Assembly: GCA_002286715.1 (NCBI GenBank)
Contig: NSJX01000006.1
Span: 972,057-1,032,366, forward strand
Length of the DNA: 60,310 nt
Direction: 5' to 3'
Origin: Dentipellis sp. KUC8613
Lineage: Eukaryota; Basidiomycota; Agaricomycetes; Russulales; Hericiaceae
Position 1 is the stretch's first letter. The number at the start of each line of letters is the position of its first letter. This document shows positions 3,966-59,895 of the stretch, piece by piece. The position numbers were made by a program, and so were the translations under genes. Under the pieces are notes generated by a model that was not told the DNA's origin, ran no database searches, and worked only from the letters and a program-made list of their open reading frames with translations.

Positions 3966-4274
3966 CATATAGGTGTAGGGTCGCGACCGCGTTCAATGAC
4001 CTCGCTAATTCATTTTTTTTCTGAATTGTGTGTCTAATCTTTATTATTACAATTCCCTCGTAGGAGTACCATTTGAAGACGTGTATGTACAATTCTTTGC
4101 ATGGAGAGTAGCAGAATGGATATTTGATATTTCTCGGTCGAGTAAATCCCGCAACATGCAATGATTCTCAGGTCGCACCGCTCTATGGTCATGTGTGTTC
4201 AGAAGACTCGGGAAATACCCATAATAATTGTATATCACAGCACTACGGGTACAAAAACCCACTTCATGTCGACA

Positions 4275-19726: not shown

Positions 19727-20118
19727 TGTCAAGGGCGCTGGAATGGGAACAGGAGTTGCCACCCAAGTCACCACAACAACAACTAAGAGAGTAGGAAGCG
19801 AGAGTGACAGACGAATGCAGCACAGAGGCAGGTGTATTCCAGCTACCTATGGGGTACAGACACAGAGGACAGTCTGGGGAATTAGCTACTGAGACACAGA
19901 CTATATGTGACAGGAGAAACCAGTGGGTCATGAGAGTAAAGTAGTCCAAATAAGGAAACAATGGGATGGTGCGATAATGATGCAATCTGGTGAGAAAGGG
20001 GAAGAGAATCACATGAAAGAGGATGCTGTGCACTAGGGGCCGGACTCTTGCACTGCAGAAGGACTCCAGGCCCTGATGGCCTGGACCAAGTTGAGGAGAA
20101 AAGGAACGACCCGTAACA
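19727..20118 (-). mobile_element. 3' LTR of a Ty3/Gypsy chromovirus
   Basis: On the minus strand it begins TGTTACGGG right after a polypurine tract (AAAGAGGGGG) and ends TTGACA, giving TG...CA ends and about 392 bp. Its 3'-terminal segment recurs as fragments at 37324-37409 and 49392-49447, which supports the boundary at 19727. Confidence 0.7.
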
Positions 20119-20649
20119 TCACCCCCTCTTTATGGCGCGCTTGCACCTGGAGCGCGTGGTCAGCATGGATGGCGTCAAGGTAGAAGAGACCATGTAAATT
20201 CGGTGGGCATGCTGCCTTTGGATGAGCCTTGTAGAAGTCGGTGATGGCGCCTTTGGCATTGCTAAGACTTGTGTGTGGAAGCCACTGGTTCTCTGTGTCC
20301 GAATACCCAACCCATTTGACAAGGTATTCAATGCCACGCTTGTTCCGAGTGATACGAGCATCAAGGATTTTTTCCACCTCATACACCTCTTCACCATCTG
20401 CCAGGAGGGATGGGTTGTGGGTGTAGTTGGGACCATGAGCCTCTGTTTCCTTGTACGGAGAAAGCAGCGATGCATGGAAGACGGGGTGAATTCGCCATGT
20501 TGAAGGAAGCTTGAGTCGGTAGGTTACCGATCCTAGAACTTCTGTGATTTCGAATGGACCGAGATGTTTAGCGGCCAACTTAGCTTTTGGACAAGTAGTC
20601 TTAATGTTCTTCCCTTCTAACCAAACTTTGTCTCCAACCTTGTAGTGTA
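20118..20649 (-). pseudogene. Ty3/Gypsy chromovirus pol 3' fragment with chromodomain
   Basis: The frame encodes the end of an integrase (HYKVGDKVWLEGKN, then a KHLGPFEITEVLGSVTYRL block and HPVFHASLLSPY) and a C-terminal chromodomain (VEKILDARI, EYLVKWVGYSDTENQWLP). In chromoviruses this domain targets integration to modified histones. Only the end of pol is present: at 20650 it abuts a Helitron-like 3' terminus, and no upstream pol is found beyond 22295, where the RBM gene begins. The frame has no internal stop but is incomplete, so it is a dead fragment. Confidence 0.9.
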
Positions 20650-22295
20650 CTAGTGAGGAGTGGGCCGGCAAGCGGCAGGGTCTGATTCATCACATTTTAT
20701 CATCTTTATAAATCATCTTTATAAATCTCTATAATTGAGGACATATAGTTCTAATCTTTATCATGATTTGGTCAGATTTGATCTCATTTCATTCATATGT
20801 CCAATTGTGTTTCAAACCTAGTCAAGCAGTCCATGTGTCTCAGAATAATAGAGGGCATGAGCTGAATTGAAAACCTTGTATGATAAGCTAAAAAAGGGGC
20901 AGTACTTGCATTGGCATTCAGGACAATTATATAACAACAATTATATTGTTAGAACTATGAAACACTACACTAAACTAAGAAAATAACATCAAAGTAATCT
21001 GCTGTCACACAAAGTACCAATGTCACCCTTCAAGACATCTCAGGGAATTATCAGTACCTGGTTGTTGAACAGAAGAAGAATGAACATACTGTGCATAAGC
21101 ACTACACAGCATGACACGGCGCCATTGTGCACGTCGAGGTCCAAGAGGGCACGACAAGGTGGGAGGCCGCGAATGAAGGAACACGACGGCGCATAATGAC
21201 AGCGTAACGACGCGCGACGGCAGCGCGAGAGCAGCGAGGGAGGGCACGTGAGGCACCAGACGATGTGCGACGGGGCGACAATGGGGTGACAGGGCGAGAT
21301 GGGTGCGAGGGGCAAGACAGCGCGCAGGCGCAACAACGGCTTCAGATGGCCGCGATGAAGGGGCAATGGCGGCACGAGGGACGTGATGCCGCGACACTGT
21401 GACACCGTGATACAGAGGGTGGCGCGCCACAGGGTGCAAGAGGGCACGACGGGCAGGAGGTCATGGCGGGAGGGCAGGTGGCGGCAGCGCCAGCTCACCG
21501 CCTCTTGAGCTACCTGTCTTGCATGTCATGTCTTGTGGTTTGCATGCTCTGGTTGCCTCTCTCGTGTGTTTCTGTACGGACCATCTCATGCATGCTCAGT
21601 CCTTATTCACGTTCAGTCTTGCATGGTGTCTTGTGGCTACCTTGTCTCACTCTTCATCTGCCTTTCCTGCATCAAATGCCTTTGTTTCTTTTTTTGTCAA
21701 TCCTGTGATGTTATTAACATTCGGTTTTGTCTAGAAACATTTTTATCTATTCCTTTTCTATCATCTCTGCTATTCATATCTCTTTAATGAGCTGCATTCC
21801 AAATTCACATATGCATGCAGCTGATTTATAAATTCCCTAATCTAGCTCTTGTAGTTAGCATGTAAAGTAAGTCACCTTATCCTCTTTTTGTAATCTAGTT
21901 ATTGTTAGGTAGTGTAAACATCCTGTAATTCATTGGTTTTGCAAAAGTCAATATTATTTTCATTGAGGACATCACTCCTCTTGTATACTAATACATTTCA
22001 GAGAAGAGCTGTATTGCTTGTAGCAAGATACCTATACCTATATTCAGGAGAAAGAGACCATTCTTCATAGCATCCACAGCTGATACCTTACTGTATTGTA
22101 ATCATAGCTTTATTTTCATAACAATCATAGCACTATCATAGAAAGGGGAGATTCCGTGTTGATAGATACCTTTCTATGTGCATATAAAGAATATATATGT
22201 TATGAAGTCACATATGGTAAGATTTTTTTTCTGATAATGTACCAACCTTCACAGATGAATCAGAACCTGCCGCTTGCCGGCCCACTCCCCACTAG
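20650..22295. mobile_element. Segment bounded by two inverted Helitron-like 3' ends, subfamily B
   Basis: Both borders are 3' type. At 20650-20653 CTAG on the minus-strand element is preceded by the GCCGCTTGCCGGC hairpin and GATGAATCAGA; at 22269-22295 the plus-strand end has the same hairpin, a 10-nt spacer and CTAG followed by T. The interior holds AT-rich arms, a CAGTACCTGGTTGTTGAA block (about 21052) and a G-rich tract (21110-21490). No 5' terminus was found inside, so this may be two truncated elements joined 5'-to-5' or a fold-back derivative. Confidence 0.65.
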
Positions 22296-37655: not shown

Positions 37656-39065
37656 GTGGCATGCAAAAATAATGCACGCCCGTGCAATGTGACATAGCAC
37701 GGCACACCACACTTGAACGACTATGTTTGCTGGCTCGCTTTGCTGGACATTATCAAACATGAGACTGCACACTACGTGGACAGAAAAAAATAAATTGAAA
37801 ATGTTGAAAATCTGAGTGAGAAATCATCGAAGTATCAAAAATAGGTAATTTTCCAACTCCAACCAGTAGCGAAATACCCCCCTGTGCATTGCAATATCCA
37901 CCAGAGCTGAACATGTAAATTAGTATTTGGTATAACCCCCCTTGGCCTCCAGTAGAGCCTCAACCTGCCTTGGCATGGATTCGTATAAGTGGTGAATCGC
38001 TTGCACATCCAACTTTGCCCATTCCTCCTGCAAAGCCTCCCATAGCTCCTCCAGTGATGAAGGACAATGGTCCCGGTGACGCACAGCACAATCCAGCATC
38101 TCCCATGCATGTTCGATGATATTCATATCTGGTGAGGAAGGAGCCCATTCAAGTACCTTGATATGTTTCTCCTTGAACCATTTCTGTGCAAGTCGGGAAG
38201 TATGCTTTGGATCAAGATCTTGAGCAAGGACAATGGTTGAGATCTTCCGTTTTTGGTCACAAGCAGTCCCTACAAGGGAGCTGGAAAGGATAGATGCATA
38301 TTGATGAGCATTCATCTTCCCCTCCACACGATGAAGCCGCCCCGGTCCTCTCCAAGTCAAAACTCCCCAGACCATCAAAGAACCACCTCCATGCTTCACC
38401 ACAGGGTTGACATTCTTGGGCTCCAGCTCCTCCCCTGGCCTCCTCCAGCAGTACATCCTCCCATCAGAGCCAAAAAGGTTGAACTTTGACTCATCTGCAA
38501 ACCAGACACGCTTCCATCTCGACACCCTCCATCCAATGAAACGCTCAGCCCATTTCCTTCCCTTGATCCTATGCATTTTGATCAGCAGCGGCTTTGAACG
38601 ATGTACACAGCCAAAGAGTTGATGTTGAATAAGCATACGACAGATTGTTGTTGGGTGAACATCCTTGAATAACTGCCGTTGGAGGTCGGTTGCATTGGTT
38701 GCCCTGCCACTAGTGATGAACCGTACAGCTCTATGCTCCAATCTGGGGGAAATTTTGCTGGGTCGGCCACTCTTTGGGACTTCATGATAGAAATCGGGGT
38801 TAGGGCCTTGTGCTAGAAGCTTCTTGTGGGCACGAGACACTGTACTTCGATTGAGTCCGAGGGAGTGAGCAGTCTCAGTGATTGACTTGCCCTCTTTCTT
38901 GACCATGGTCCAAACTCGGGCTTTCTTGGTTGGTGTCATGACTGTCATGGTGTTGAAATGAAAGGTAAGAGGTGTCAGGATGTTGGTGATGATGGTGGAC
39001 ACGGAAAGAGAGTCGTTGTCGTCGGTTGTCAAGGAGGCACGTTGATGTGTTGCACACGACGTAGT
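37652..39065 (-). mobile_element. Tc1/mariner-type element, copy 1 (5' TIR not found)
   Basis: The 3' terminus begins CAGTGGCATGCAAAAATAAT right after TA (37652-37653), the canonical Tc1 target. A matching inverted terminus closes copy 3 at 48119. The transposase lies at 37920-38948. On its 5' side the shared sequence stops near 39065 without the expected terminal repeat, facing a partial second copy head-to-head. Confidence 0.8.
37920..38948 (-). CDS. Tc1-like DD34E transposase, intact frame
   Basis: A 342-residue cut-and-paste transposase. The N-terminal helix-turn-helix region (KEGKSITETAHSLGLNRSTV) is followed by a GRPSK motif and a second DNA-binding helix set (ATDLQRQLF). The catalytic triad is D in FADESKF, D in LAQDLDPKHTS and E in MNIIEHAW, with 34 residues between the second D and E, hence DD34E. 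Length is normal for Tc1. The frame is uninterrupted from the ATG at 38948; it stays open further upstream but lacks another ATG. It could be active if both termini exist, but the 5' terminal repeat was not found. Confidence 0.9.
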   Translation of the reverse strand: MTVMTPTKKARVWTMVKKEGKSITETAHSLGLNRSTVSRAHKKLLAQGPNPDFYHEVPKSGRPSKISPRLEHRAVRFITSGRATNATDLQRQLFKDVHPTTICRMLIQHQLFGCVHRSKPLLIKMHRIKGRKWAERFIGWRVSRWKRVWFADESKFNLFGSDGRMYCWRRPGEELEPKNVNPVVKHGGGSLMVWGVLTWRGPGRLHRVEGKMNAHQYASILSSSLVGTACDQKRKISTIVLAQDLDPKHTSRLAQKWFKEKHIKVLEWAPSSPDMNIIEHAWEMLDCAVRHRDHCPSSLEELWEALQEEWAKLDVQAIHHLYESMPRQVEALLEAKGGYTKY

Positions 39066-39225
39066 TTCTCATGTAGTACCTCGAGCTTGATGTATTTTAC
39101 ATAGGTCTCTTAACAAAAAATTTTCTTTACCATCTGTATATTATACGTAAGAAAGAATTGAGAAAAAATACTGCACGAGGGAGGAAGAAATCGTGCACAA
39201 ATGTGATGAACGCAATCACGGTCAC
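39066..39225. other. Spacer between head-to-head Tc1 copies
   Basis: About 160 bp of AT-rich sequence with no repeat or gene recognised, lying between inverted Tc1 5' regions. It could act as a shared promoter, which is inference. Confidence 0.4.
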
Positions 39226-39354
39226 ATGATTCGAACGCGTCGCGTGCAACACATCAACGTGCCTCCTTGACAACCGACGACAACAACTCTCTTTCCGTGT
39301 CCACCATCATCACCAACATCCTGACACCTCTTACCTTTCATTTCGACACCATGA
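39226..39354 (+). mobile_element. Tc1 copy 2, 5' part
   Basis: Inverted copy of the leader of copy 1 (AACACATCAACGTGCCTCC, ACAACCGACGACAAC, ACATCCTGACACCTCTTACC) up to CACCATGA. It stops at 39354 where a Helitron-like element begins and resumes at 43729. Confidence 0.85.
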
Positions 39355-42300
39355 CTAGTGGGGAGTGGGCCGGCAAGCGGCAGGTTCTGATTCATCTTTG
39401 AGGGTAAGTATGACTTGATTTCAGATTATTACAAAATTTCACATAATTAATTATTCTCCAATTCTTTGTATGATTTGACATGATCTTCTGTTCTTTGCAT
39501 AATGTATATATTCTAGTTACTCAACTTACCTTTATCAGAACATTTACTCTTAGTGCCTCCCTACAGTGTTCACACTATAGAAATATCATACTTGTACATT
39601 GTCACCACAAGTCCTGCATCTATCAAAACTCTATTGGCTTCATACACCACACTAAACTATAAAACTGATATGAAAATAATCAAGTATCACACAGACTCAA
39701 TGCATCCCTACAAGATGTCCAACAGAATTTTCAGTACCTGGATATTGAATAAAAGAAGAATAAACATGCCATCCAAAAGCATCATAACAGAGCCACATAT
39801 GTTGGTACTGACATCAAGCCTGCTATGACACACAACACACAGTAGCCACTATTGAATGCCAGCATTGAAAAGTTGCAGTAGGCAGCACAGGGTGCAAGAC
39901 TGTGCAACACAGCGCAACATGGCACCATAGAGCACGATGGGGTGCAAGAGGACGTGACAGGGCAGGAGGCAGCTGCGCGCGGGTTCAGACGGCGTGGCGC
40001 GGCACATGAGCACGGTGAGGCGACACGCAAGAGGGTTGCCAGGGAGCCGAGAGGGTACAGCAGGGCGTAATACAGCGCCACGGGGTGCCAGACCGCAGCA
40101 AGGGCGCGCCACGGGGCGCGAGAGGGTGCAACGGGGGTCCAGACAGCGCGCGACAGCTGCGCGGAACGCGTGACGGCGGAGTGACGCAGACCGAGGGAGT
40201 GGGCGCGAGGTGAGACAGCGCGGGCAGCACGACACGAGGCGGCGCAGACCTCACAATGTGAAACGGCGTGGACAGTGCGAGAGGGAAAGGCAGGCGAGAG
40301 GGACAGCACACAGACGGCGAGCGCACGCAAAAGCGGAGGTGGAGGGGCAGGAACAAGGGCGCACGAGAGAGGACCGTGTGCATAAGACAACGCGGATGGC
40401 GTGAGACGCAACAACGTGCAACACGCAGCTTGCGTCATTGCTACGGCGCGCGGGGAACCATACGGCGTGCGGGGTGTCGACACGGCAGATGGGGCGGTCA
40501 GAGGGTGCGCAGGGCAGCGACGCAGTGCGCAGCCTGCGCCATTGCTAGGGCGCATGCAGTACGACAAGGCGTGCAGCATGTGACCTGCGCTGTTGCTATG
40601 GCACGCGGCAGTGGAGCGGGAGGCGCAGGGGCATGAAACGGCAGCACGGGGACGGTGCGGGGCCATGCGAGGGCGGTGGCGGCACAGGAGAGCACGGGGT
40701 GGGCGCGGGAGAGGGCAGCACGGGCACGGCGGTGTAAAACGGTGGCATACGGCTGCAGAATGGCCGCACGCGGCCGTGAAATGCACATCCTGCGCCGTTG
40801 CTGTGGCGGGCAGGGCGCAGCTACGGCGGACAGGGTGGTTACGAGGCGGCGCCAAGGCACTTGAGGCGCCCAGAGGGCTGCATGCCGTTGCCAAGGTGTG
40901 CGAGGTGCAGCGATGGCGGAGGGGACGGTTTCGGGACGGACGGGGTGATTACAGGGTGTGCGAGGCGGTGAGAGCGCTCGTGTGCATGAGGCGACGTGAG
41001 GGCGAGAGGAGCTGTGTGAGAGACGATGAGGCGGTGAGAACCCGTGCAGGGCAGCGACAACGCGGCCCAGGAAGGGCGCAATCGCGCTGTTACTTGGGCG
41101 CGCAGCGTACGAGACACGCGTCCTGCACCATGGCTGGGCGTGCGGGACGGCGCGTCGGCATGTATGGCAGTGAGCTTGTGCCGTTGCTTGGGCGCTGGCG
41201 CGAGCGGGCGCGACATGGTGCAAGCGGGCGGGAGATGGCACGAGCGGGCGTGACGGAGATGCGTGGGCAGAAGATGGGGGTGCGTGCCATGCAGCCTGCA
41301 CCATTGCTAACGCACGCGGTGCAGTGAAACAGTGCGCAAGCGACAATATCGCGTGTGGAGCAGCGAGAGGACGAGCCGCCTGCGCCGTTGCTAGGGCGCG
41401 CGGGTGGCAACACGGCAGGCCAGAGGGCTGAGACGCCTTCGGGAGGACGGCGAAGCGGCGTTGGAGGGGCGCCAGAGGGCGCAAGATGCTGTTGCTAGGG
41501 CATTGGTGGGGTACGGGGGGCAAAAAGAGCCGAGGGGGGCACGAAGAACATGTGAGGGCGTGATGGGTGTGTGATGGGTGCATGAGCAAGGATGGGTGTG
41601 GGCGCGAGAGGGCGGGGCATGCAGACGGCCTCGCGGGTCGCGAGACGGTAAGACAGCGGCAGAGCGTAGCAAGGCTTGAAGAGGACGGGGTGCGCCGTCA
41701 AGACGACGTTGTAGGGCACGACACGCGTGACGGCGGCGCTGCAGTGCGCAGCGCACGGGGCGGCATCGAGGGAGCATGAGGTGTTGTCGCTGGGGCACCA
41801 GAGGGCCTCCAGGGTGTCGCTACGGCGCGGGGCGGCGGCACAACGATGCGGGGCGACGCCGTTGGGGCGTGGGCCGGTGTTGCAGGGGCGCGAGGCATCA
41901 CAAGGGTGTGAGACGGTGTCCCAAGGGCGCATGGCGTCTTTGTGAGAAGGCGTGCGATGGCGTCGCAAAGGGGGCAGGCCCCGGGCAAGGGAGCGGGGCA
42001 TCGTCGCAAAGGCGAATGACACGGCGAGGGGAGGTATGACAGCGCGACGGCGCGAAAGAGCGGGTGATGGTGGTGCGATGGCACATGACGGCAACGCCCG
42101 ACGCAGACGGTGGCTGCGTGCGGCGTGGGCGCGAAGATGGCGGTGGGGGTCAGCGGGGGCGCAACAGGGCACACAGACAGCGGCGGCGGGCATCAAAAGG
42201 GCACGGCGGGGCGTGCAAGACGGCAGGGCGCGCAAGACGGCGACGGGGGACGTTGAAAGGGTGTGGCGGGACAGTACCGCCGGCAAGAGCACATGCGTGG

Positions 42301-43728
42301 CGTCGTTCGAGGGCGGGGCGGGCGGGGCATTGGGTATGCAGATGGCGCATCAGCGTGCAGACGGCAGCGCACGGGGCGAGACAGGACAGTGGGGGCGAAG
42401 AGGGGGCAGGGTGCGGGAGACGAAGGCGGGGGGCGCGAAACAACCCCATGGGGCACAAAGAAGGCGCGGTGAGGGTGTTGAGACGGCAGCAGGGGGCGGG
42501 AGATGACGGAAACCGCCCCATGGGTCCCGTAGAAGGCGTGGCGCGGCACAGACGGCGCGGCGTGAGTGTCAAGACAGCAGCAGGGACGGGAGACAGTGGC
42601 GGAGGGCGCAAAACCGCGGCGAGGAGCGCAAAACTGCGGCGGAGTGCGCGAAATGGCCCCATCGGGCCCAAAGAAGGCGGGGTGGGGCGCAGATGGCGGC
42701 GGTGAGTGTCGAGACGGTGGCAGCAGGCATCAAGACAGCGGCACAGGGGGCAGGGGGCGCAGGGGGTGGTGAAACGGCAGCAGAGGGGGAGAAACGGCGG
42801 CAGGGGCAAAGAGTTCTTTGGGGGCTTCCGGCGCGAATGCAGGCACGAGTGCGTATGCGAGTGCGGGTGAGGACGGCGCGTGGGGGCGAAGGACGGCATG
42901 TGGGGGCAAACAGCGGCGAGCGGGGGCAGAAGACGGCGAGCGGGGGGCATCCATATGGTTGCGGGGGCCGTGAAATGGCGGCGGAGGGTGTCAAGATGGT
43001 GGCGGCGGGCACAGGGGAGCGCAAGGGGGCATGAAACGGTGGTGGGGGCGAAGAGGGTGCATGCAAAAAAACACTCACCTATCGCGATTTTGCGTCACTC
43101 TGCCTCTTGGAATCCTACATGCCTCCGTCTTGGCTTGTAAGTGCAATTCTTCAGGGGCTTCCGGTGCGAGTGCGCATGCGAGTGCAGGCGGGAGTGCGAG
43201 ACGGCAATGGCGATGGCGATGACAACAAGAGTCGAGTGATGAGCGCTTGAGCCACAAAGACCTTCGGCAATTCCCACGCATGGCTCGTCAATGCAGCGTT
43301 TGCGCAGAGACAAGCTCTCTGAGACCCAAATAAATCACTAGAAATCTCAAATAAATTACTGGACTCGCAAGAATACATGATAGACCTATGCAAATATTCT
43401 TGAGTAAGTTCAATTCCTCTTGCATTGACAATGGTATATCTTCCAATCTGACCCTCTAGGGCACAGCGCGACTTCCGATTTCTGAGCGATGTAGAGATGC
43501 CATTGTCTTCCAACTTTTATGGCAGGTGTATATACTAGTCTTGTACGTGTCCTCGAATTTTCAAAATGATTGAGCATGAATTGAGCTGTACAGAAAATAA
43601 AAGAGAAGTCTCTTGAACCAATGTGGCTGAAATCCGTGGGAACCAACTTCCCGAACTTGAGATTTTGAAGTTCTTCGAGTTTTAGTGGCTCACCCCATTA
43701 TTAGAACTGATTCATAGATGAATCAGAA
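39355..43728 (-). mobile_element. Helitron-like element, subfamily B, 4374 bp, with paralogous empty site
   Basis: On the minus strand it starts TTCTGATTCATCTATGAATC at 43728 and ends with GATGAATCAGAA, the GCCGCTTGCCGGC hairpin, a 10-nt spacer and CTAG at 39355-39358, followed by T. It splits Tc1 copy 2. Removing 39355-43728 exactly restores the CACCATGACAGTCATGACAC site seen in Tc1 copy 1, with no duplication, as expected for Helitron-type insertion and not for cut-and-paste. Interior: 5' arm (43728-43080), a 3.2-kb tract (39850-43070, C-rich on the element strand), and an AT-rich 3' arm. No Rep/helicase gene, hence non-autonomous. Confidence 0.88.
39850..43070. repeat. G-rich strand-asymmetric tract inside the Helitron-like element
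   Basis: Plus strand rich in GGCGCGAGAGGGTGC-type words, with the minus strand open in several frames for 100-370 codons. It also contains G-run clusters able to form G-quadruplexes, e.g. 42391-42417. No protein domain is recognisable. Confidence 0.75.
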
Positions 43729-44660
43729 CAGTCATGACACCAACCAAGAAAGCCCGAGTTTGGACCATGGTCAAGAAAGAGGGCAAGTCAATCACTGAGA
43801 CTGCTCACTCCCTCGGACTCAATCGAAGTACAGTGTCTCGTGCCCACAAGAAGCTTCTAGCACAAGGCCCTAACCCCGATTTCTATCATGAAGTCCCAAA
43901 GAGTGGCCGACCCAGCAAAATTTCCCCCAGATTGGAGCATAGAGCTGTACGGTTCATCACTAGTGGCAGGGCAACCAATGCAACCGACCTCCAACGGCAG
44001 TTATTCAAGGATGTTCACCCAACAACAATCTGTCGTATGCTTATTCAACATCAACTCTTTGGCTGTGTACATCGTTCAAAGCCGCTGCTGATCAAAATGC
44101 ATAGGATCAAGGGAAGGAAATGGGCTGAGCGTTTCATTGGATGGAGGGTGTCGAGATGGAAGCGTGTCTGGTTTGCAGATGAGTCAAAGTTCAACCTTTT
44201 TGGCTCTGATGGGAGGATGTACTGCTGGAGGAGGCCAGGGGAGGAGCTGGAGCCCAAGAATGTCAACCCTGTGGTGAAGCATGGAGGTGGTTCTTTGATG
44301 GTCTGGGGAGTTTTGACTTGGAGAGGACCGGGGCGGCTTCATCGTGTGGAGGGGAAGATGAATGCTCATCAATATGCATCTATCCTTTCCAGCTCCCTTG
44401 TAGGGACTGCTTGTGACCAAAAACGGAAGATCTCAACCATTGTCCTTGCTCAAGATCTTGATCCAAAGCATACTTCCCGACTTGCACAGAAATGGTTCAA
44501 GGAGAAACATATCAAGGTACTTGAATGGGCTCCTTCCTCACCAGATATGAATATCATCGAACATGCATGGGAGATGCTGGATCGTGCTGTGCGTCACCGG
44601 GACCATTGTCCTTCATCACTGGAGGAGCTATGGGAGGCTTTGCAGGAGGAATGGGCAAAG
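43729..44660 (+). pseudogene. Tc1 copy 2 transposase, split and C-terminally truncated
   Basis: Continues the transposase after the Helitron insertion, from the second Met codon (43734) to EEWAK, where a second Helitron-like 5' end (44661) removes the last 33 or so residues; the frame closes at 44666. It is nearly identical to copy 1 (one C to R change noted in the MLD(C/R)AVRH segment). All three catalytic residues remain, but the start region and C-terminus are lost. Confidence 0.9.
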
Positions 44661-46961: not shown

Positions 46962-47728
46962 NNNNNNNNNNNNNNNNNNNNNNNNNNNNNNNNNNNNNNN
47001 NNNNNNNNNNNNNNNNNNNNNNNNNNNNNNNNNNNNNNNNNNNNNNNNNNNNNNNNNNNNNNNNNNNNNNNNNNNNNNNNNNNNNNNNNNNNNNNNNNNN
47101 NNNNNNNNNNNNNNNNNNNNNNNNNNNNNNNNNNNNNNNNNNNNNNNNNNNNNNNNNNNNNNNNNNNNNNNNNNNNNNNNNNNNNNNNNNNNNNNNNNNN
47201 NNNNNNNNNNNNNNNNNNNNNNNNNNNNNNNNNNNNNNNNNNNNNNNNNNNNNNNNNNNNNNNNNNNNNNNNNNNNNNNNNNNNNNNNNNNNNNNNNNNN
47301 NNNNNNNNNNNNNNNNNNNNNNNNNNNNNNNNNNNNNNNNNNNNNNNNNNNNNNNNNNNNNNNNNNNNNNNNNNNNNNNNNNNNNNNNNNNNNNNNNNNN
47401 NNNNNNNNNNNNNNNNNNNNNNNNNNNNNNNNNNNNNNNNNNNNNNNNNNNNNNNNNNNNNNNNNNNNNNNNNNNNNNNNNNNNNNNNNNNNNNNNNNNN
47501 NNNNNNNNNNNNNNNNNNNNNNNNNNNNNNNNNNNNNNNNNNNNNNNNNNNNNNNNNNNNNNNNNNNNNNNNNNNNNNNNNNNNNNNNNNNNNNNNNNNN
47601 NNNNNNNNNNNNNNNNNNNNNNNNNNNNNNNNNNNNNNNNNNNNNNNNNNNNNNNNNNNNNNNNNNNNNNNNNNNNNNNNNNNNNNNNNNNNNNNNNNNN
47701 NNNNNNNNNNNNNNNNNNNNNNNNNNNN
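46962..47728. other. Assembly gap (767 N)
   Basis: Undetermined. Sequence after the gap starts within a Tc1 transposase, 34 bp upstream of the point where copy 2 is interrupted, so the gap edge falls in a repeat. Confidence 1.
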
Positions 47729-49447: not shown

Positions 49448-49500
49448 CTAGTTGGGAGTGGGCCGTCACATGTGCGGCAGGATCTGATTCAGCCAGGGGG
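49448..49500 (-). mobile_element. Helitron-like 3' end, subfamily A
   Basis: On the minus strand: GGCTGAATCAGA, hairpin GCCGCACATGTGACGGC, 10-nt spacer, CTAG at 49448-49451, then T. The element body should extend to the right; its 5' end is not identified. Confidence 0.75.
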
Positions 49501-49635: not shown

Positions 49636-50230
49636 TTCTGATTCAGCCATGAATCACTTTTAATTAGACACACTCGCAGGTCGCGTCGTCCACTTTTAAT
49701 CGTACAAACAGGAAATGAATTCCCACGATCTTTTTGACGCGTCAAACACTGGCTGTGACTTCAAAGTTATAGCTGAGCAGACTTCTATAATGATTCTTCA
49801 ACAAATTTTTTGATTCAGGTAGAACATTTGATTGTGTAAAAAAAGAAATTGAAATTTCTTGAATGTATGTAGTCTACATGGTGACAACTGCAACCCTCAA
49901 AGCCTTCGGGACATGACACATGAATCAGTCGTTGCTAGGGCACGTGGCACAACAACAAGGTGTGCTGGCAGCAACATCTGAAAAAATAAAGATTTACATA
50001 GCCACCACTGTGGTTATGTATGCTATGTGTCCTATGAAATAAGATGCCCAGCTATGGATGACTCCATAGCAGCCATAGCAGCCATAGCTGGCAGGAGCAT
50101 CTCTATAGCAGTAGTGAACATCTCCATAGCAACTATAGGCTGTATAAATTCTCTCAAGGATCCATAGCCTTGTATAGCTACTACTATGTCTATGTTACCT
50201 ATGCACTGCCCACATGCCTGAGCTTCATTA
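49636..50230 (+). mobile_element. Helitron-like 5' end, subfamily A
   Basis: TTCTGATTCAGCCATGAATC after an A, continuing with AATTAGACACACTCGCAGGT as in the 7107 copy. A CATCTGAAAAAATA boundary motif and CTATGG/CCATAG words follow at 49977-50180. The plus-strand 3' end at 59895 is a possible partner (10.26 kb), but nested elements make this uncertain. Confidence 0.6.
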
Positions 50231-50379
50231 TTCATTGCAATTCTTTACTGGTAGCTTAGAGTATACATTAAATAGATTTGTGATGTCATACAAACTGAGT
50301 ACACTAATTGAGCAACAGGTGATGGCAGGGTGAGTGGATATGCAGAGTTAGTCCATGGAGGGTGCAGGTGTGCGGGCAC

Positions 50380-51085
50380 GAGAAGAACACATCAGCACGA
50401 TAGGCAACCGCCCGACGAGGGCGTGATAAGGGCGTGCCAGCGCGACTGCGCGACAACGCGACGAGGGTGTGAGGGTGCGACAATAGCGCGAGGGTGCGGC
50501 AATGGCGCGAGGGTGCGCAGGCACGACAAGCGCGACAAGGGCATGCTAGCGCGACAGCGCGACGAGGGCATGAGGGTGCTGCGAGGGCGTGGGTGTGCGG
50601 CGAGGGCATGGGGGTGCGGGCGCACAAAGGCGCGAAGAGGGCGAGACCGGGGTGACGAGGCGACGAGGGCGTACCGGCGCTCCGGCGCGAAGAGGGCGTG
50701 CCGACGCAACAGCACGAAGAGGGAGCGAGGGAGCGCAGGCGCGACGGCCCGGAGAGGGCGGAACAAGGAGGGCACGAGGAGGGCGGGCGCAAGACGGGTG
50801 AGATGGGCGCGACAGCACCACGAGGGCGCGCGGGCGCGATGATGCGACAGGGGCGCGAGAAGGGCGCTACGGGAGGCGCGGGCATGACGACGCGAAGACG
50901 GATGCGACGACGCGACGGCACGACGAGGGCGTGCCGGCGCGACAGCGCGAAGAGGGGGCGAGGGGGCACGGGCGCGACGAAGAGGGCGCGATGAGGAGGG
51001 CACGAGGGCGGGCGCGAGACGGGTGAGATGGGCACGACCGCGCAACGAGGGTGCGAGGATACGGAACCGGCGCGATGATACGAGG
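50380..51085. repeat. G-rich strand-asymmetric tract
   Basis: GCGACGAGGGCGTG-type words on the plus strand; the reverse strand carries the C-rich sense continuing from the alpha leader at 51560-51086. Confidence 0.75.
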
Positions 51086-51560
51086 CTACAGAGAAGGTGC
51101 GGCGTCAGTAGGGCGTGCTGAAACACGCTGAGCGTGTTGGCAAAGCGACGTACCTGTGGCTGCGTCTCAGGCTCTCTCCTCGCTGTCTTCACGACAATTG
51201 TGTCAACGATTGCGAGGGCGGATTCGATAAAGGAACAATGGGCGGCGGAGGGAGTGGGGGCGAGTTGGTAGAGGAGGATGGAGAAGAGAGGAGAGCGACA
51301 AGTCGCGTCTCCAAGGTGTCGGTAGTTGCCGCAGGCCATTTCTCGACCGCTGAAGTTCACCCTCGAGGGCGCAATAAATTTCATTTATTATTGAGTAAAA
51401 TTCACAGAAGTGCTGCAGCTATGAAGCAACATTCGAGTGAATATCAGAACAAAAAATGAACTGAGCGGCCCATAAAGCTTAGATCAGTCTCGCGAATTAC
51501 TGTTCAGTCATCCTTTGCCATCTCTGCACGACACGACTTACGCAAAGTATAGCACGCCGA
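51086..51560 (-). other. Alpha leader module copy 2 with predicted intron
   Basis: On the minus strand: GAGATGGCAAAGGATGACTG, GCGAGACTGATCTAAGC, a TTTATTGCGCCC block, CGGCAACTACCGACACC, then intron 51153-51086 with donor GTACGT, a CTGAC branch site and a TAG acceptor (68 nt), opening into the C-rich strand of the tract at 50380-51085. Same order as the modules at 14200 and 54470. Confidence 0.7.
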
Positions 51561-51659
51561 TGGTCTTTAAGCATTATATTTCTGAGAACTCAGACAAGTG
51601 TTTCATAAATTTCATTGTAGGTTCTTCATTCACTCCTGGACCTCTCAGAATAATCTTAC

Positions 51660-52250
51660 ATTTTAATGAAAAACCTTTCACGCTGTATATTTGATTCGAC
51701 ACCAATCCGCGCACCACGCGGATATCGCCGATGGTCCGTGCGCGTTGCGGGCGCTTGCTGCCACCTCATCAGCGCGATGCGTCGTTGCTTCTTTCTTTCC
51801 TCTTTCTCCCTCCATCCTCATGCCTCCGCTCCGCTCTCTTGCTTTGGCTCTCCACCTCGCCATGCTCATCCGCTTCAACGATCCACACACCGTCTTTCCG
51901 TCGCTCCTGTCCTTGCTCATTGTGTACCGCCATCTTTCCTAGCTCCTCACTTGTCCACGCGCGCACGCGCTCTCGACCACACACCCGCTGTTCAACCCTG
52001 CATGTACGTCGTGCGCTCTGGCCGACATTGTCTTCGCCTTGCACCCTCGCATTTAGTATTTTTTTTTGCATGCTCACTCACTCACTGATACTTATCACAT
52101 CATTTCCTAGGTGTTCTGAGCCTGTTTGCATGCCGCTCGTATGTGCTCATGCTCGCGCGCGTGCCGCTGCCTGCTCTCCTCTCGCTCATCATCACGTGGC
52201 TGCATGCTCATGTGACCATGCCATATCGTGAGTGCGTATTCGGTCCCGCT
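51660..52250 (+). repeat. Beta module copy 1 and C-rich tract
   Basis: Begins TTTCACGCTGTATATTTGAT, then GCGGATATCGCCGATGG, GCCACCTCATCAGCGCGATG and a TTTCTTTCC pyrimidine-rich part. Matches the reverse complement of about 54360-53930. No protein recognised. Confidence 0.7.
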
Positions 52251-53700
52251 GTTCATGCGTCATACTGACACTTCTTTCAACATTGACTTACAGTACTGGC
52301 TATTGCTTGCCATACAGCAGGCATCATTTGCATGTGGATCTGTTATTGTGCATGGTATGTCTGTTCTTCTCCTACTCTACATTGTGATCCTGCAGGATGT
52401 CTCATAGTCAGGCATTGGTCCTTTGTGTGGTAGCATGTTGGCTTGTTATCATGTGTATAGTTTAGTGTGGTGTAGCACAGTTCTGCCAATACTATTGATT
52501 ATCATCATTATTCTCATTGTTTTTTTGAATGCCAATTCAAATGCTTGTATTCATGAAGCCCAGAATGGTTCAATAACTGCAGGAATGCTTGTGGCAATAT
52601 ATAAGCCTAATAAGTCCTATAGCCTGTGGAATGCAAGTAGGAGCAATAGTAATGATAGCAAGGTACCTTTGTATATAGCAAGGTACCTAAATATATAGAA
52701 AGGGGCTCTCTTTTATAGCTTCTATAGTAGGGTACCTTCTTCTATAGCAGCCATAGCTGAAGGGGCAGTTTCTATAGCAGCCATAGCACTATCATAGCAA
52801 GGGGGTATCTATGAAGATGGATACCTTTCTATCAGCCTATTAGGGTTATCTTGACTATCAACTGCTCTATAGTAAGGTTTATTTTTTCAGATGAACTTAG
52901 AGGGTGGGGCGGTGAGAGAGCGTGATGCCTGCACCATTGCTAGGGCGTGCGCAGCAGCGACACACCTAGTGAGGCCGCCAGACCGCAGGTCTGCCGCTGG
53001 TGAGAGGGTGCGTAGGATGGCGAGCTGGCGCGCAGCGCCATCAGGAAAAATAACCCTTGCTATATAGCACTCTATAGTATACATAACCCTGATAGGGCCA
53101 TAGCAAGGTATCCATCTTTCGTAGCTATAGATTTACCCCTTCCTCTATGATAGTGCTATGGCTGCTATGGAAGAAGGCACCTTGCTATGGCTGCTATGGA
53201 ATAAGGTACCCTGCTATGAGTTCTATGGAAGAAGGTACCCAACTATGTACCTAAGTACCTTGCTATCACTACTATCATTGCTTTCTAGGGCCTGAAGGAT
53301 ATGAGACCTACCTCTTCAATATATCATCCATAGCCTACATGAAACCATCAACAAATTGCAGCTTGAAATAATAACAAATTCTCATTCATTCATCTGAATT
53401 TGGAACAATAAGGATCATAATCAAAAACATTATTATATTTTTGAAACCAATCTAATACATCACTACACTACACATGTACTTGCAGGAAACCTTTCCCCAC
53501 AACCAGATACAATTCCACACTACAAAAGATGTCCTGCAAGAGATGAGAGATTATATCAAGAGCAGAATAAATTACATACCATCACCACATATTGGACATG
53601 CAACAGATCAGTAGTCTCCTATGATGACTTACAAGAATATCAATAACTATAAAAGAAACAAAAGAAGAGAGTACATACACAATGATCGAACACACAGACC
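52251..53700. repeat. CTATAG/GGTACC-word repeats and short G-rich island
   Basis: 52458 holds the TATAGTTTAGTGTGGTGTA junction word. 52600-52880 and 53050-53340 carry CTATAGC and AAGGTACCT words in mirrored order around a small G-rich island (52900-53040) bounded on both sides by TTTTTCAGATG / CATCAGGAAAAATA motifs. 53340-53700 is AT-rich with no gene. Confidence 0.6.
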
Positions 53701-53739
53701 AAGAGACTTACGATGTGTGAGCAAGACTGTATAGCGGAG

Positions 53740-54360
53740 GCACCACACATAGGTCAAAGCTCATGCATCGGCAAGCGAAAGGACATGGGGGCACAGAGTA
53801 GAGAAGGGACACGTGGGCAACGTGCAGGTATGGACACGAATGCCAGTGCGAAACAGAGGTGGGGGCTAGGGCAGGCAATGACAGCGAGGACGACTGGATG
53901 TGATCAGTAAGCAGACATGGCGCACAGGCAATACACATACCAAATCCGGTGGCCCAGGCGCAGAGGGTACGAATAAATGAGTGACGCAGACGCGCGTCGA
54001 CGACAGCAAAACACGCAGTGACGGGCGTGCGCGCTGAGACTGTGCTCGTGTGAATGAGCTGGGGAGCAGACAGGGTGGATACGGCGTGTCATACGTACCG
54101 TCTAATGCCCTGCAAGTGCCGCGGCCGAGACAACAGCCAAATATTGAGGAGGAGGCGGGCGGAGAGGAAGAGCGAGAGCAAGATGCAGGAGGAAGTGGGG
54201 TCAAAGAAGAGGAAGGAAGAGAAGGCACGACGCATCGTGCTGATGAGGTGGCACGAAGCGCCCGCCGCGCACGGACCAGCGCGCCCGTCGGCAATATCCG
54301 TGTGGAGCGCGGTCTGCGGTCGAGTCGAATATACAGCATGGAAAGAATTTCGGTAAAATG
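53740..54360 (-). repeat. Beta module copy 2 and purine-rich tract (plus strand)
   Basis: On the minus strand it reads CATGCTGTATATTCGACTCG, CACGGATATTGCCGACGG, GCCACCTCATCAGCACGATG, then pyrimidine-rich sequence: inverted relative to 51660-52080. Confidence 0.7.
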
Positions 54361-54469
54361 CAAGATTATTCGAGGAAGTATATGAGAATATAAAGAACCT
54401 ACCACAATATTGAGGAAGCAATTGATTCAGTTTTGATTGGTACAAGTCACAAAGAACGTCTACGCGTTA

Positions 54470-54975
54470 TGTTTTGCTCAAGTCACGTCGTCCACAGATG
54501 GCAAAAGACAACTGACTATTAATTCATGAGACTGATCTGAGTCTTCCAGGCCAGTATATTCATTGTTTTTTGAGATATTTCTGCAGAGTGCGAACATAAT
54601 TGTTTTACCATCGTACAAATTTAATCGGCATTTTTTACATTTTATTGCGCTCCAAAAGACAGTCTCGAGTAGTCGAGGAACGGCCCGCGGCAACTGCCGA
54701 CGCCGTCGCCACTGGAGATGCGACTTGTACATGATGATGTCGCTTTCCTCTCTTCATCCTCAACACGCTCTCGACCCCAACTCGACCCCGCTCCCTCCAC
54801 CGCCCGTCGTCCGCACTACCACATATGCCCCGCAAAAGTCAACGACACCGTCGTCATGGAGATAGGGTGGGGAATGTAGGATGTCAGAGACCGCGACCGC
54901 AGGTACGTCGCTCTAGCGACACACTCAGCATGTCGCAGCACACCCGATACTGACTCCCCGCTCTCTCTAGCCTTG
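54470..54975 (+). other. Alpha leader module copy 3 with predicted intron
   Basis: CAAGTCACGTCGTCCACAGA, a GCAAAAGACAACTGACTATT block, GAGACTGATCTGAGTC, CGGCAACTGCCGACGCC (about 54687-54704), a CGTCATGGAGATAGGG block and intron 54903-54970: donor GTACGT, branch site CTGAC at 54950-54954, acceptor CTCTAG, 68 nt. The ATG in ATGGAGATAGGG is closed after eight codons. Confidence 0.7.
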
Positions 54976-55470
54976 CAACCCCAGTGTTGAGTCACTGGGG
55001 TCGTCTTCCTGCACTCATTCGCACGTTCTCGTGCACCCATCCTCCCAACACCCATACCACGTACGTCGCCACGTCACACGCATCGATGCCCGCACGATGT
55101 CATGTGCACGTTGCGTCGCCATCAGACTTCTGCACTCGCGCCGCCCTCTACGCCTTTCTTACTGCATCGTCGTGCGCAACGCCTCGCCTTCACCGTCCTC
55201 TCACATCACACCCTCCGTGCCCGCCGCCACGTTCTTCCCGCCCGCGCCATCGCGCACCACTGCCCCAGTCGCCATGTCCACGCTCGCGCGCCGTCACGCG
55301 CTCTACGCCCACGCTCTTTTGCATTCCGTCCGCGCGCTCTGCGTTGACGTGTGCTTTGCGCACACCTGTCCGTGCTGCCGGCTCTGGTGGTTCCCTGTCT
55401 GCGGTGTTCGCACTTGTGCCGTTGCACCATGTGGTCTCAATCTGTGCCCTATCTTGTGTGCTCAGCACCT
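54976..55470. repeat. C-rich tract after alpha copy 3
   Basis: CGCCCGCGCCATCGCGC-type words, decreasing in bias to the right; open in more than one frame, no domain. Confidence 0.6.
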
Positions 55471-55870
55471 GCACCTCTCCTCTTGAACCTTGCATACATA
55501 CTTTTTTGCAGGAGTACATGTGCATATGTACATCAGTGTCTCTTGTTATTCAAAACTATGAATAAATTCTAATGGTCTATGATGTCTTAAGGTCTGATGT
55601 TTGGGAAATTCAAATGGTATCTGGCTTATGCTAGTCTCACAGTCTGCATAGTTCATGGTGGCAGCTATGTAAGGCTATAGAACATTGACTTGGAATTGTA
55701 TAGCCTATAGATGCTATAGGACTATTCACATTGGCTATGGCTGCTATGGAGTCATCCACCTTGGCTATGGCTGCTATGGCTGCTATGGCTGCTATGGAGC
55801 AGTCTATAGCTGACTCACCTTTTCTATAGCATTCATAGTATACATAAGTATAGTGGTGGCTATAGAAATC
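55471..55870. repeat. AT-rich flank and CTATGG words
   Basis: 55660-55870 has repeated CTATGGCTGCTATGG words ending at a TTTTTTCTGATGGC boundary that leads into the next G-rich tract. Confidence 0.65.
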
Positions 55871-55889
55871 CTTATTTTTTCTGATGGCA

Positions 55890-56625
55890 GTGACACAGCA
55901 CGCGGGTGCCGACATGGTGGGTGGAGCTGCCAGACGGCGGGACGCGGCTGCGCACGGGTCCAGATGGCGTGGTGTGGCACAAGAGTGCAGCGCAGCGACG
56001 TGGCAAGGCGTGAGAGGGTCGCCAGGGGGTTGCGAGGGCGTGTCGGGGAGCAAAACAGTGCCACGACGCGCCAGAGAGCGACGTGGGCGCGCCGCGGGGC
56101 GCGAGAGGGCGCGACGGGGAGTGACAAGGAGCGAGGCAGCGGTCTAGACAGCGCGGCGCAGCACAACACGGCGCCACGGGGCGCCACATGGCGCAATGGG
56201 GTGCGAGAGGTTGCGAGAGGGTGGCACACGGCACGGCGGGGGTCCAGACAACGTAGTGTGCTGCACGAGGGCAGCGAGGCAATGTTGCGTGGCACGAGGG
56301 GGTCGCTAGGAGGCCGAGAGGGCGTAGCGGGGAGTAATAGAGCGCTACGGGGCGCCAGACCGCGGCGAGGGCGCGCCACGGCGCGCGAGAGGGGTCCAGA
56401 CAGTGCACAACGGCCGCACGAGGCGCGTGATGGCCGAGTGACGGCGCGTAGTGGCGGAGCGAGGAACTGTGGCGACGAGTGAGCGGGTGCAAGGCGAGAC
56501 AGCCCTGGCGGCATGACACAAGGCAGTGCAGACGGCGCGAAACGGCACGGACGGTGTGAAAGGGGAAGGCGTGCGAGAGGGACGGCGTGCAGATGGTGAG
56601 CACACGCAAAAGGGAGGGCAACAAG
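55890..56625. repeat. G-rich strand-asymmetric tract
   Basis: GCGCGAGAGGGCGCGACGG-type words on the plus strand, related to 39880-40280 (e.g. GGTCCAGAC, GGGGCGCCAGACCGC). No gene. Confidence 0.7.
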
Positions 56626-56630
56626 GACAC

Positions 56631-56650
56631 GAGCCCGGGATCCCGGGCTC
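56631..56650. repeat. Perfect 20-bp palindrome GAGCCCGGGATCCCGGGCTC
   Basis: At the end of the G-rich tract, followed by the inverse of the TTGACTGACCACGC block: the mirror image of the junction at 57047. Confidence 0.9.
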
Positions 56651-56859
56651 GCGTGGTCAGTTAAAAGTAAAAATGACAGCAACAGTGACGCACTTGAACA
56701 CCCAAACATGCCTCTCTGAGATCTTCTGATATCGATGCACGCGTGCTCTCTTTCTGCGCGTTGAGGTCGGGCGGTCGTGGTGGCGCGAGTATGGAGGGTA
56801 AGTACCTTGATGTCGAGAGTGAGCGACACCTTAGAGCACAAAGTCGCATCTGCATGGAC

Positions 56860-57066
56860 TTCGGCAATTCCCGCGTGCAGTTCGTCAGCCCACAAGTCCA
56901 CACCGCACCACCTCTTGTGAACACGTCTCCCCAACCCACACAAGCTCGCATTCAACAGGTAGGAGAGAAGTGGTAGTCGAGTCGAGGATAGCTAGGCATT
57001 TCAGGTGTGTCACCACCGCTTCGACCTCATCGTTGACTGACCACGCGAGCCCGGGATCCCGGGCTC
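56860..57066 (+). repeat. Helitron-like 5' arm distal segment with junction palindrome
   Basis: Contains GGCAATTCCCGCGTGCA, ACCACCTCTTGTG, GGAGAGAAGTGGTAGTCGAG, AGGTGTGTC and TTGACTGACCACGC as at 7570-7755, ending in the perfect palindrome at 57047-57066. The true 5' terminus is missing. Confidence 0.65.
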
Positions 57067-58915
57067 GCGTCCTTTGTCCGTCCATGCTACGCTTATGCAC
57101 CATTCCACGCCCTCCACGCTCACCCTCGCCCCCGGCGCGCACGCTCTCGCCCTCCAATGCGCCACATCCTCACCCTCCAATGCGCCGAACGCGCCCTCCC
57201 GTGCATCATCGCCCCCCTCTCGTGCGGCATCACGCCCTACCACGCCCTGTCCACGGCTTCCGCACGCCGCATGCACTCTCCGCACGCCGTACACGCTCTC
57301 CTTCGTGCCCTTCGCGCCCTTTGCACCCTTCTCGCCCTCCGCACGCTGTACACGCCATCGGCGCGCCGCACGCGCCGTCTTCGCGGCCTCCGCGGCCTCC
57401 AGCAGCCCTCCAACCGGCCTCCTCACGCTCTTCGCGCCCTGCACGCGCCCTTCGCGCCCTCCGCGCACCGTACACGCCGTCGACGCGCCCCACGCGGTCC
57501 CACAGCCGCCTCCTCGTGCCCCAGCACGCACCACCGCCGCCTCCTCGCTGCCCTCGGTCGCCCACCGCCGCCCTCGTTCGCCCACCGCCGCGTTCGACAC
57601 CCTCTCCGCCGCCTCCTCACGCCCTCCATGTGCCGTCCACCGCCCTCGACGCCCTCGACACCGCCGTCCTCGCGCTGTCCTCGCGCCGTCCTCATGCCGT
57701 CCTCGCGCCGTCCTCGCGCCGTCCTTGTGCCGTACGTGCACCGTACGCGCCGTCCTCACACCGTACGCGCCGTACGCGCCCTCCCCGCCCTCCCCGCTGC
57801 CTCCTCGCACCCTACGCGCCCTCCACGCGCTCCATGCGCCCTACGCGCCCTACGCACCCTCCCCGCCGCCCTCCCCGCCCTTGTTCGCCCACCGCCGCCT
57901 TTGACACTCCGTCCGCGCCCTCGACGCGGCCTCCTTGTGCCCTACGCGGCCTCCCAGTGCCCTCCGCCACCCTGTCCACCCTCCCTATGCCCTGTCCGCC
58001 CTGCCCGCGCCGTCCGCCGCCCTCGACGCGCCCTCGACGCCCTCAACGCGCCCTCGACGCCCTCGACGCGCCCTCCTCGCACGAGCGCGTCCCACTGCCA
58101 CCGTCTCTCGCCCCAGGACATCCTGCCGCTGTCCACACTCGCCCGCCCTCCGCCGCCTCCTCGTGCCGTCCCCGCCCTCTCCACGCTGTCCGCCGCCATC
58201 TCCACCACCCTCCTCGCACCGCCTGCCGCCGCCTGCCACCGTCTCCACCACCCTCACGCGCCGTACGCGCTGTACGTGCTGTCGATGTGCCGTCCGCCAC
58301 CTACATGCACCCTCCGCTGCCTCTATCTGCCGTCCGCCACCTCCACGCGCCGTCCGCCGCCTCCATGCACCCTCTGCCGCCTCCACGCACCCTCCGCCGC
58401 CTCCATGCGCCGTACGCGCCGTCGATGCGCCGTCTTCGCCCTCTCCGCCGCCCTTTCTGCCCCTCTACGTGCTGTCGACACGCCGTCCGCCACCTCCATC
58501 CGCCGTCCGCCACCTCCATCCGCCGTCCGCCGCCTCCACACACCGTCTGTGCCTCCGCGCGCCCTCCACACACCGTCCCTGCCCTCTCCGCGTGCCCTCC
58601 ACACGCTGTCCCTGCCCTCTCCGTGCTGCCCGCCGCCTCCACGCACCCTCCGCCGCCTCCAGACGCCGTCTGCCGCCTCCAGATGCCCTCCACGCGCCCT
58701 CCGCCGCCTCCGCACGCTGTCTGTCGCCGCCTTCGCACACCCTCCGCGCCCTCTGTGTGCCATCCACGCCATGTGTGCACCATCTGGGCGCGCTCCACAT
58801 GCTTCAGCCGCCATCTGGGGCTTCCAACCGCCCTGCGTCGCCTTCTCTGCACTCTCATCCGCGCTCTCCGCCACCGTCCCGTGCCCTCCTCATGCCCTCT
58901 GCCCTCTGGAACCTT
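57067..58915. repeat. C-rich strand-asymmetric tract
   Basis: 1.85 kb of CGCCCTCC, CCGCCGCCTCC and CGTACGCGCC words. All three plus frames are open for 350-650 codons simultaneously, giving Pro/Arg/Ala/Ser/His-rich translations; composition, not coding. Confidence 0.8.
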
Positions 58916-59331
58916 GTAGTAAGTTTCTTTCTTATCTTCCTAGTCCTGCCTTCACTTGAACTGCCCCCAAACTATTAAGTGTTTTCATTGCAATGGTATG
59001 TTGTCTTTTCAACCTCTGAGGCTTTCATGGATATTCAATATGAACCTTTTGGATTACTCTTCACCATTGAGCATTCTGGTCATTATTTTCTTCTACTTGG
59101 GGTCTTGATAGTTGTAGTATACTAGTTGTTCTGCATCCTTGTGTAGCTATCAATAAAATGATTTCCAATGCTCTCACTGTTTAGATTTAAGCTGGATATC
59201 TTGCATAGGTCAAATAACATCCAGCAAAATCCAGGAAGATTAAAGAGTCAGACAAAAAAACATCACAGAAGATAATATCAAATAAATTGGGTATCATGCA
59301 GACAAATCAAATCAAGTCAGATCAAGTCAAA
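58916..59331. other. AT-rich 3' flank
   Basis: No gene; ends with a short AAATC-type A-tract run (59275-59330). Confidence 0.45.
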
Positions 59332-59895
59332 CTAGTTGGGAGTGGCATGCAGCAGATTCTGGTTTAGCCAGGGGGGGGGATATTTCATGTTCATTATTAC
59401 TTGGGTATATAATAAAACCAAGAATGCATTACGATTTCTGATAAGGCATCGTCTATTATAGACTCACCTTCAGTGCGAAAAAGTGCGCGCGTCGTCAGCA
59501 ATCAGAGCTCCCGGTCGAGTCGATAAGCGTTGGCTTGAGGTATTGTGGGTTCGATCCCCACGGAATGTAAATTTTTACTCATTTTGAATTGACCTGAACA
59601 AGGTCATTGAAGGCAGATATTTGTTTGGGCCAAATTTCTGAGGCTTTCCTAAGATAATTCGAGAATATTCATCATTTCTTCAAAGTTGTATTTACAGGGA
59701 AGTGAAATGGGTGCATCGATGGGCCCGCGAGGACCATTGGCCCGGGAGTTTTCCGACTTGACTGTAGTGACTCCAGGAATCGTCTTGCCGTGCGACGCAT
59801 CGGCCACTCCCTCCAAGTTAGTATTTACTGAGATGAAATAACCCCCCTGGCTGAATCAGATCCCGCCGCACATGTGACGGCCCACTCCCAACTAG
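59332..59895. mobile_element. Segment between two inverted Helitron-like 3' ends, subfamily A
   Basis: The left border (minus-strand CTAG at 59332-59335) lacks most of the hairpin by a small deletion. The right border (plus strand) is complete: GGCTGAATCAGAT, hairpin GCCGCACATGTGACGGC at 59865-59881, 10-nt spacer, CTAG 59892-59895, then T. Both share CCCCCCTGGCTGAATCAG-type flanks. Size 564 bp. Confidence 0.7.
59500..59568 (+). repeat. tRNA-like sequence inside the 59332-59895 segment
   Basis: A perfect T-arm (GTGGG TTCGATC CCCAC, 59545-59561) and a D-arm-like GGTCGAGTCGATAAGC at about 59513-59528. The putative acceptor ends do not pair, so not called as a gene. Confidence 0.4.

Follow-up and report, generated by a model that had tools for sequence, protein, structure and literature searches.

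A non-autonomous insert with Helitron2-like ends in a Tc1 copy of Dentipellis sp. KUC8613, and its likely RepHel partner

The insert and its empty site

The window, by which we mean the whole stretch of 60,310 nucleotides analysed here, holds two Tc1 copies, the second of which is interrupted by a 4,374-bp insert with siblings elsewhere in the genome. The features on which the argument turns are as follows.

37920–39068, minus strand: reading frame of Tc1 copy 1, with the empty site at 38932–38951 (direct reading, frames, filled/empty comparison)
39355–43728, minus strand: complete non-autonomous element of 4,374 bp in Tc1 copy 2, assigned to the Helitron2 type (both ends and flanks read, empty site, genome siblings that share its left and right modules)
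39355–39358, minus strand: 3′ terminal CTAG, then the target T at 39354
39369–39381, minus strand: 3′ hairpin GCCG-CTTGC-CGGC (142 genome matches of hairpin, spacer and CTAG)
39385–39396, minus strand: asymmetric inverted repeat of the right side, GATGAATCAGAA, 30 nt short of the 3′ end (direct reading)
39355–39643, minus strand: right module of about 290 bp, common to sister elements (several matches to query 4086–4374, 84–89% identity)
39644–43064, minus strand: variable payload, mostly G+C-rich, C-/T-rich on the element strand (query 1437–4374 is 94% identical on contig C156)
43065–43728, minus strand: left module of about 660 bp, common to sister elements (many matches ending near query position 664, 72–84% identity)
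43707–43728, minus strand: left (5′) end TTCTGATTCATCTATGAATCAG, with a 12-bp inverted repeat at the extreme end and an 8-bp hairpin stem (168 genome matches)
43729–44660, plus strand: right part of Tc1 copy 2, the interrupted host element (open frame, direct reading)

Joining 39354 to 43729 yields CACCATGACAGTCATGACAC, which on direct reading is the uninterrupted sequence of Tc1 copy 1 (38932–38951, complement), and the flanks, taken as 100 bp per side (200 bp joined), are 99% identical to that copy across the join, so that the internal empty site described in the initial annotation of this DNA is confirmed. On the minus strand the insert starts with TTCTGATTCATC from 43728 and closes with GATGAATCAGAA-CCT-GCCGCTTGCCGGC-CCACTCCCCA-CTAG, ending at 39355 and followed by T. 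The same annotation had read the junction as free of any target duplication, for which the window copy alone is insufficient, being compatible with a 1-bp shift or with a 2-bp duplication (GT, minus strand). The 2-bp GT duplication was considered and rejected, 38 of 57 left ends in the family having no G at −1. Duplications of 2 bp or more are thereby ruled out with the help of other copies, while a 1-bp T duplication, in which the element would begin with TC rather than TTC, may have occurred and is compatible with every copy.

The surroundings of the insert are themselves rearranged. Between 37900 and 39354 the two Tc1 copies face each other across a spacer of about 170 bp, with outer sequences repeated in inverted order. 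Two more left ends of the family lie 430 bp apart at 44661 and 45091, the first of which cuts Tc1 copy 2 again; past a gap at 46962–47728, Tc1 picks up again with the 44661 site intact, which could mean a third copy of Tc1 or a duplication in the assembly. At 20650–22295, two right ends of the main family face outward 1.6 kb apart, and the left one adjoins a retrotransposon-like chromodomain frame (20033–20686).

Termini, family size and target rule

Both ends recur throughout the 34.1-Mb assembly: the 27-nt right-end pattern was searched with up to 3 mismatches and the 22-nt left-end pattern with up to 1, the reversed-pattern controls giving 0 matches in each case, and the left-end subfamily that includes the window copy accounts for 76 matches. 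At the left end, the hairpin folds far better than expected (z = −4.15; 1 of 200 shuffles equal). Its start, TTC, is found in 61 of 61 left ends, with the reservation that the search pattern itself begins with TTC and that the first T may belong to the target. At the right end, the repeat core GATGAATCAG lies just 5′ of the 3′ hairpin in 49 of the 50 ends that reach far enough to be examined there. The short 3′ hairpin is followed after 10 nt by CTAG, in keeping with the hairpin some 10–12 nt before CTRR that characterizes the Helitron superfamily, with an unexceptional fold energy that is no better than that of shuffles (z = −1.06; 30 of 200 equal). The final four bases are CTAG in 66 of 70 right ends and CTTG in the other 4. 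What the initial annotation overlooked is that these ends, with their asymmetric inverted repeats and 5′ hairpin, are Helitron2-like.

Complete elements were assembled from 100 of the 142 right ends and 100 of the 168 left ends. Nearest-end pairing gave 43 pairs, of which 14 were dropped (left end paired twice, or long distances), leaving, among the ends listed, 29 complete elements of 2,970 to 8,598 bp. Five of these had lost a flank to N or to a contig end, and 24 were usable; for 21, the joined flanks served as queries against the genome, and each of the 24 was set against the loci retrieved and the window. For 11 of the 24 joined sites an uninterrupted paralogous site exists (C2:830366, C134, C42, C15, two on C124, C71, C32, C128, which is the window copy, C143 and C62). 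At none of these junctions were bases lost or 2 bp or more duplicated, as is typical of Helitrons; a 1-bp T duplication is compatible. The identities of these empty sites range from about 80% to 100% (best or typical match). The empty relatives of the C32 element are sister elements, and the C42 pair carries a 2-bp gap 4–8 nt off the junction. In the sequence compared, 12 of the 24 joined sites had no empty counterpart; a match for C56 was discarded as spurious, having matched the element's own left end. No target duplication recurs among the 24 complete elements: their flank ends agree over 1, 2 and 3 bp in 4, 1 and 2 cases, which are scattered coincidences.

Could the filled sites be an assembly artefact, in which unrelated contigs were joined at a repeat? 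Family ends do occur at contig ends or beside gaps (C65:1, C83:1 and the end of C50), but the idea is scarcely credible given that empty sites match eleven different junctions, with an identity over 200 bp of 99% for two and 100% for one, and that the window element holds no runs of N.

The target rule emerges from the flanks. All 66 usable right ends are followed by T. At −1, before TTC, the 57 usable left ends have A 31 times, G 19 times, T 7 times and never C, and an earlier count gave a purine at 50 of 56 (p = 5e-10), so that the target is mainly R/T, a purine followed by T. The remark in the initial annotation that TTC stands between G and T in the window copy, unlike the canonical TC between A and T, holds up. 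Of the 11 filled sites with an empty counterpart, 9 have A or G directly 5′ of the element, and the empty site therefore holds a single T, which may be the element's own or a duplicated one.

Modules and payload

Since the ends are common to many copies and the centre to few, the window copy is modular. A genome search with the whole element recovered the centre, which is weakly tandem, at 94% identity at C156:13977–16965, at 91% on C144 and at 88% on C13. Six long frames of the window element were scanned and contained no Pfam domain, DDE included; the copy is non-autonomous, without a transposase domain. One family member (C62:9913–16217) carries a protein-kinase fragment (Pfam scan, E = 7e-16), which suggests gene capture, probably from the host. 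The interiors also share a compositional bias: 35 of 37 left-end interiors have a negative GC skew on the element strand, as do, less uniformly, 27 of 36 right-end interiors, and when each inside was paired with its outside, 28 of 29 insides against 17 of 29 outsides were negative (p = 1.6e-5), all these counts including nested copies. This strong pyrimidine bias may be an imprint left on the payload by single-strand copying.

A candidate autonomous partner

If the window copy encodes no transposase, which enzyme might move it? The Helitron Rep domain has 12 matches in the genome, and 8 of these loci, all but those on C150, C11, C135 and C152, were read beyond the domain. The RepHel on C15 comprises DUF6570, Helitron_like_N (Rep, HUH type) and PIF1 helicase domains; its frame stops at 14264, and a right end of the family follows on the same strand at 14342–14368. 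A search with the last 270 residues of this protein found two more copies at 91–92% identity, on C169 and C59, each again followed by a same-strand family right end (C169:31134–31160, C59:9487–9513). The gap from the match to the right-end pattern is 78–80 nt in these two and 75 nt beside a short fragment on C43. A distant RepHel on C85 ends beside a CAAG-T end of a sister family. A RepHel relative from Athelia sp. TMB, along with fungal-type genes, would fit a basidiomycete host.

The left side of these genes is less complete. No left end in the same orientation was found near RepHel in the stretches read (none in C15:1–7216 at up to 6 mismatches), and no complete left end was seen on the same contig as a RepHel copy; the C15 contig starts before the expected position, and the Rep loci on C169 and C3 run into assembly gaps, with mostly N downstream. 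The first 803 bp of C15 (C15:1–803) are 95% identical to inner positions 472–1269 of the short element C2:830366–833335. Of the Rep/helicase element with the same ends that the initial annotation had proposed looking for, the right end was seen in three RepHel copies and the left end was not. Given the right end common to three near-identical copies, this RepHel is likely the autonomous partner of the family.

The Helitron-type transfer proposed in that annotation now draws on 11 filled/empty pairs, the common 3′ end of hairpin, 10 nt and CTAG, and the thrice-repeated association of RepHel with the same right end. Against it, a 2–11 bp target duplication or a DDE transposase had been named as telling signs; neither appeared, no duplication recurring in 24 elements and no Pfam domain in the six frames. 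A cut-and-paste (DDE) element that duplicates 0–1 bp would accommodate the 1-bp T duplication with which all copies are compatible, but it is highly improbable in view of inverted repeats that are asymmetric and not terminal, six long frames scanned without a DDE domain, and a RepHel gene that is followed by this right end in three copies.

Copies of the family have landed in the RepHel genes of C15 and C62, for which other contigs hold the empty sites; judging from end positions, the RepHel genes of C169 and C152 appear to have been hit likewise. Family copies inside their own or related RepHel genes seem more frequent than a random spread suggests, to which clustering may contribute.

Sister families and the place among Helitrons

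Two sister families keep the layout of the main family, namely inverted repeats that match each other and a hairpin at the 5′ end, with different sequences. One has the inverted repeat TACGATTCCTGA and ends in CAAG followed by T (26 right-end matches), and the other has TTCTGATTCAGC and ends in AACTAG followed by T (48 right-end matches). Their left hairpins fold with z = −4.01 and −4.30, and their right hairpins, with z = 0.19 and −1.89, no better than shuffles. In each, the altered repeat matches an equally altered partner at the opposite end, which argues, on sequence grounds, that end-to-end pairing of the repeats matters. Members of both families lie in the window: 17929–18921 and 49636–59895 (plus strand) and a right end at 49448–49478 (minus strand) are of the TTCTGATTCAGC and AACTAG type, their ends being putatively paired, and an element of about 390 bp of the CAAG type (59429–59817, plus strand) is nested in the one at 49636–59895.

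Comparison with known systems, as far as the excerpts of the cited accounts go, places the family closest to Helitron2 by its ends. Helitron2 elements of Chlamydomonas and others are described with asymmetric inverted repeats of 8–15 bp, the 5′ one 0–2 bp from the end within a 5′ hairpin and the 3′ one about 20–30 bp from the end, before the 3′ hairpin (PMC3627910). Here the repeats are 12 bp long, one lying at the very 5′ end (0 bp) and the other 30 nt short of the 3′ end, and the 5′ hairpin includes the 5′ repeat; the copies of Helitron-1N1_CRe likewise show no duplication in the excerpted account (PMC3627910). Those elements are described as inserting between TTTT and T or C (PMC3627910), unlike the R/T target and the Helitron1-like CTAG found here. 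The family ends thus agree with the published Helitron2 terminal definition yet finish in Helitron1-like CTAG and then T, and the family appears Helitron2-like by its termini, which are the basis of this assignment, rather than RepHel phylogeny.

Other systems share individual features. First, FoHeli1/2 of Fusarium oxysporum resemble the family in their asymmetric inverted repeats, a hairpin at either end, the ambiguity between TC and TTC and, in some copies, multiple 5′ ends, but differ in a 3′ ATTTT and a TNAT target, as opposed to CTAG and T here (excerpt of PMC5148889). Second, proto-Helentron-Pi of Phytophthora infestans resembles the family in its 5′ TT, 3′ CTAG, T right flank and lack of both endonuclease and duplication, but has an A/T target, and the excerpt of its description mentions no asymmetric inverted repeats (PMC4067079). 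Third, HELPO1/2 of Pleurotus ostreatus combine a CT(A/T)G 3′ end and hairpin with gene capture in a basidiomycete, but are described with AT specificity and a T(C/G) start, and the excerpted report gives no asymmetric repeats (PMC4289320). Finally, the non-autonomous Helentrons HINE/DINE-1 are non-coding, with two conserved modules around a variable centre, but have a TT target and a Helentron partner with endonuclease in the excerpted accounts, and the centre here is weakly tandem (PMC4067079, PMC7492417). As for Helentrons in general, no AP endonuclease was found in the Pfam scan of the C-terminal halves of the C15 and C85 RepHels, which returned PIF1/AAA and one sub-cutoff MeaB match, and a TT target with variable T runs is at odds with a −1 base that is T in 7 of 57.

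The closest competitor is a canonical Helitron1 family, with 5′ TC, 3′ hairpin and CTRR, an A/T target and inverted repeats that are incidental. A 3′ hairpin followed after 10 nt by CTAG and T, insertion without duplication, and A as the commonest −1 base (31 of 57) all sit well with it. We nevertheless consider it rather unlikely, since 49 of 50 right ends, and two sister families of different sequence, retain the 12-bp repeat pair, the 5′ hairpins reach z values of −4.0 to −4.3, and G or T stands at −1 in 26 of 57. Helitron1 ends lack inverted repeats, and Helitron1 is described as having no 5′ hairpin (excerpt of PMC3627910).

Proposed mode of transposition

We put a probability of roughly 0.93 on the reading that the insert belongs, as a non-autonomous member, to a rolling-circle family of Helitron2 type, which the RepHel of full-length relatives would mobilize. 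RepHel would nick the element strand before TTC, and its helicase would peel that strand off and stop at the 3′ hairpin and CTAG. The strand would then be placed 5′ of a T, preferably after a purine, possibly duplicating that T at most. Rolling-circle copying of the family, and the movement of the window copy by this RepHel, are presumed steps of the same scheme. The left 12-bp repeat could fold as a hairpin or pair with its copy before the 3′ hairpin and may in this way set the end point; pairing of the 5′ with the 3′ repeat has been proposed as a model for Helitron2 (excerpt of PMC3627910). A head-to-tail junction of the ends, as in a circle, has 0 matches in the genome. With abundant ends, filled and empty sites, a candidate enzyme and sister families, this genome offers a testable Helitron2 system, and the sister families, which keep the repeat pairing while changing its sequence, bear on the selection of ends in Helitron2.

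A putative USP-like domain at the RepHel C-terminus

The RepHel C-terminus carries a putative USP-deubiquitinase-like domain (C15:13452–14261, C85:10017–10787). The predicted structure of the C-terminus of one RepHel relative matches a USP fold, in a model of low overall confidence (mean pLDDT 65.1, pTM 0.37) whose blocks from residue 690 on reach 79–95. A profile built from the sequences of the RepHel relatives hit PIF1 and Helraiser chains and no USP chain; the fold is predicted from the structure model only. Conserved Cys, His and Asp residues are present in 22 of 22 RepHel relatives. In the literature searched, we found no description of a USP-deubiquitinase fold on Helitrons.

Deubiquitinases of the OTU and VTD classes are fused to Helitron transposases. 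We entertain, at somewhat less than even odds, the broader reading that this is a Helitron2 lineage of fungi whose ends are a mosaic (repeats and 5′ hairpin as in Helitron2, CTAG and T in the style of Helitron1, a relaxed R/T target) and whose RepHel has gained a USP-class deubiquitinase. A USP-like transposase domain would extend the idea of deubiquitinase-carrying Helitrons and, if true, would represent a further deubiquitinase class on a Helitron transposase, suggesting a convergent need to counter ubiquitin.
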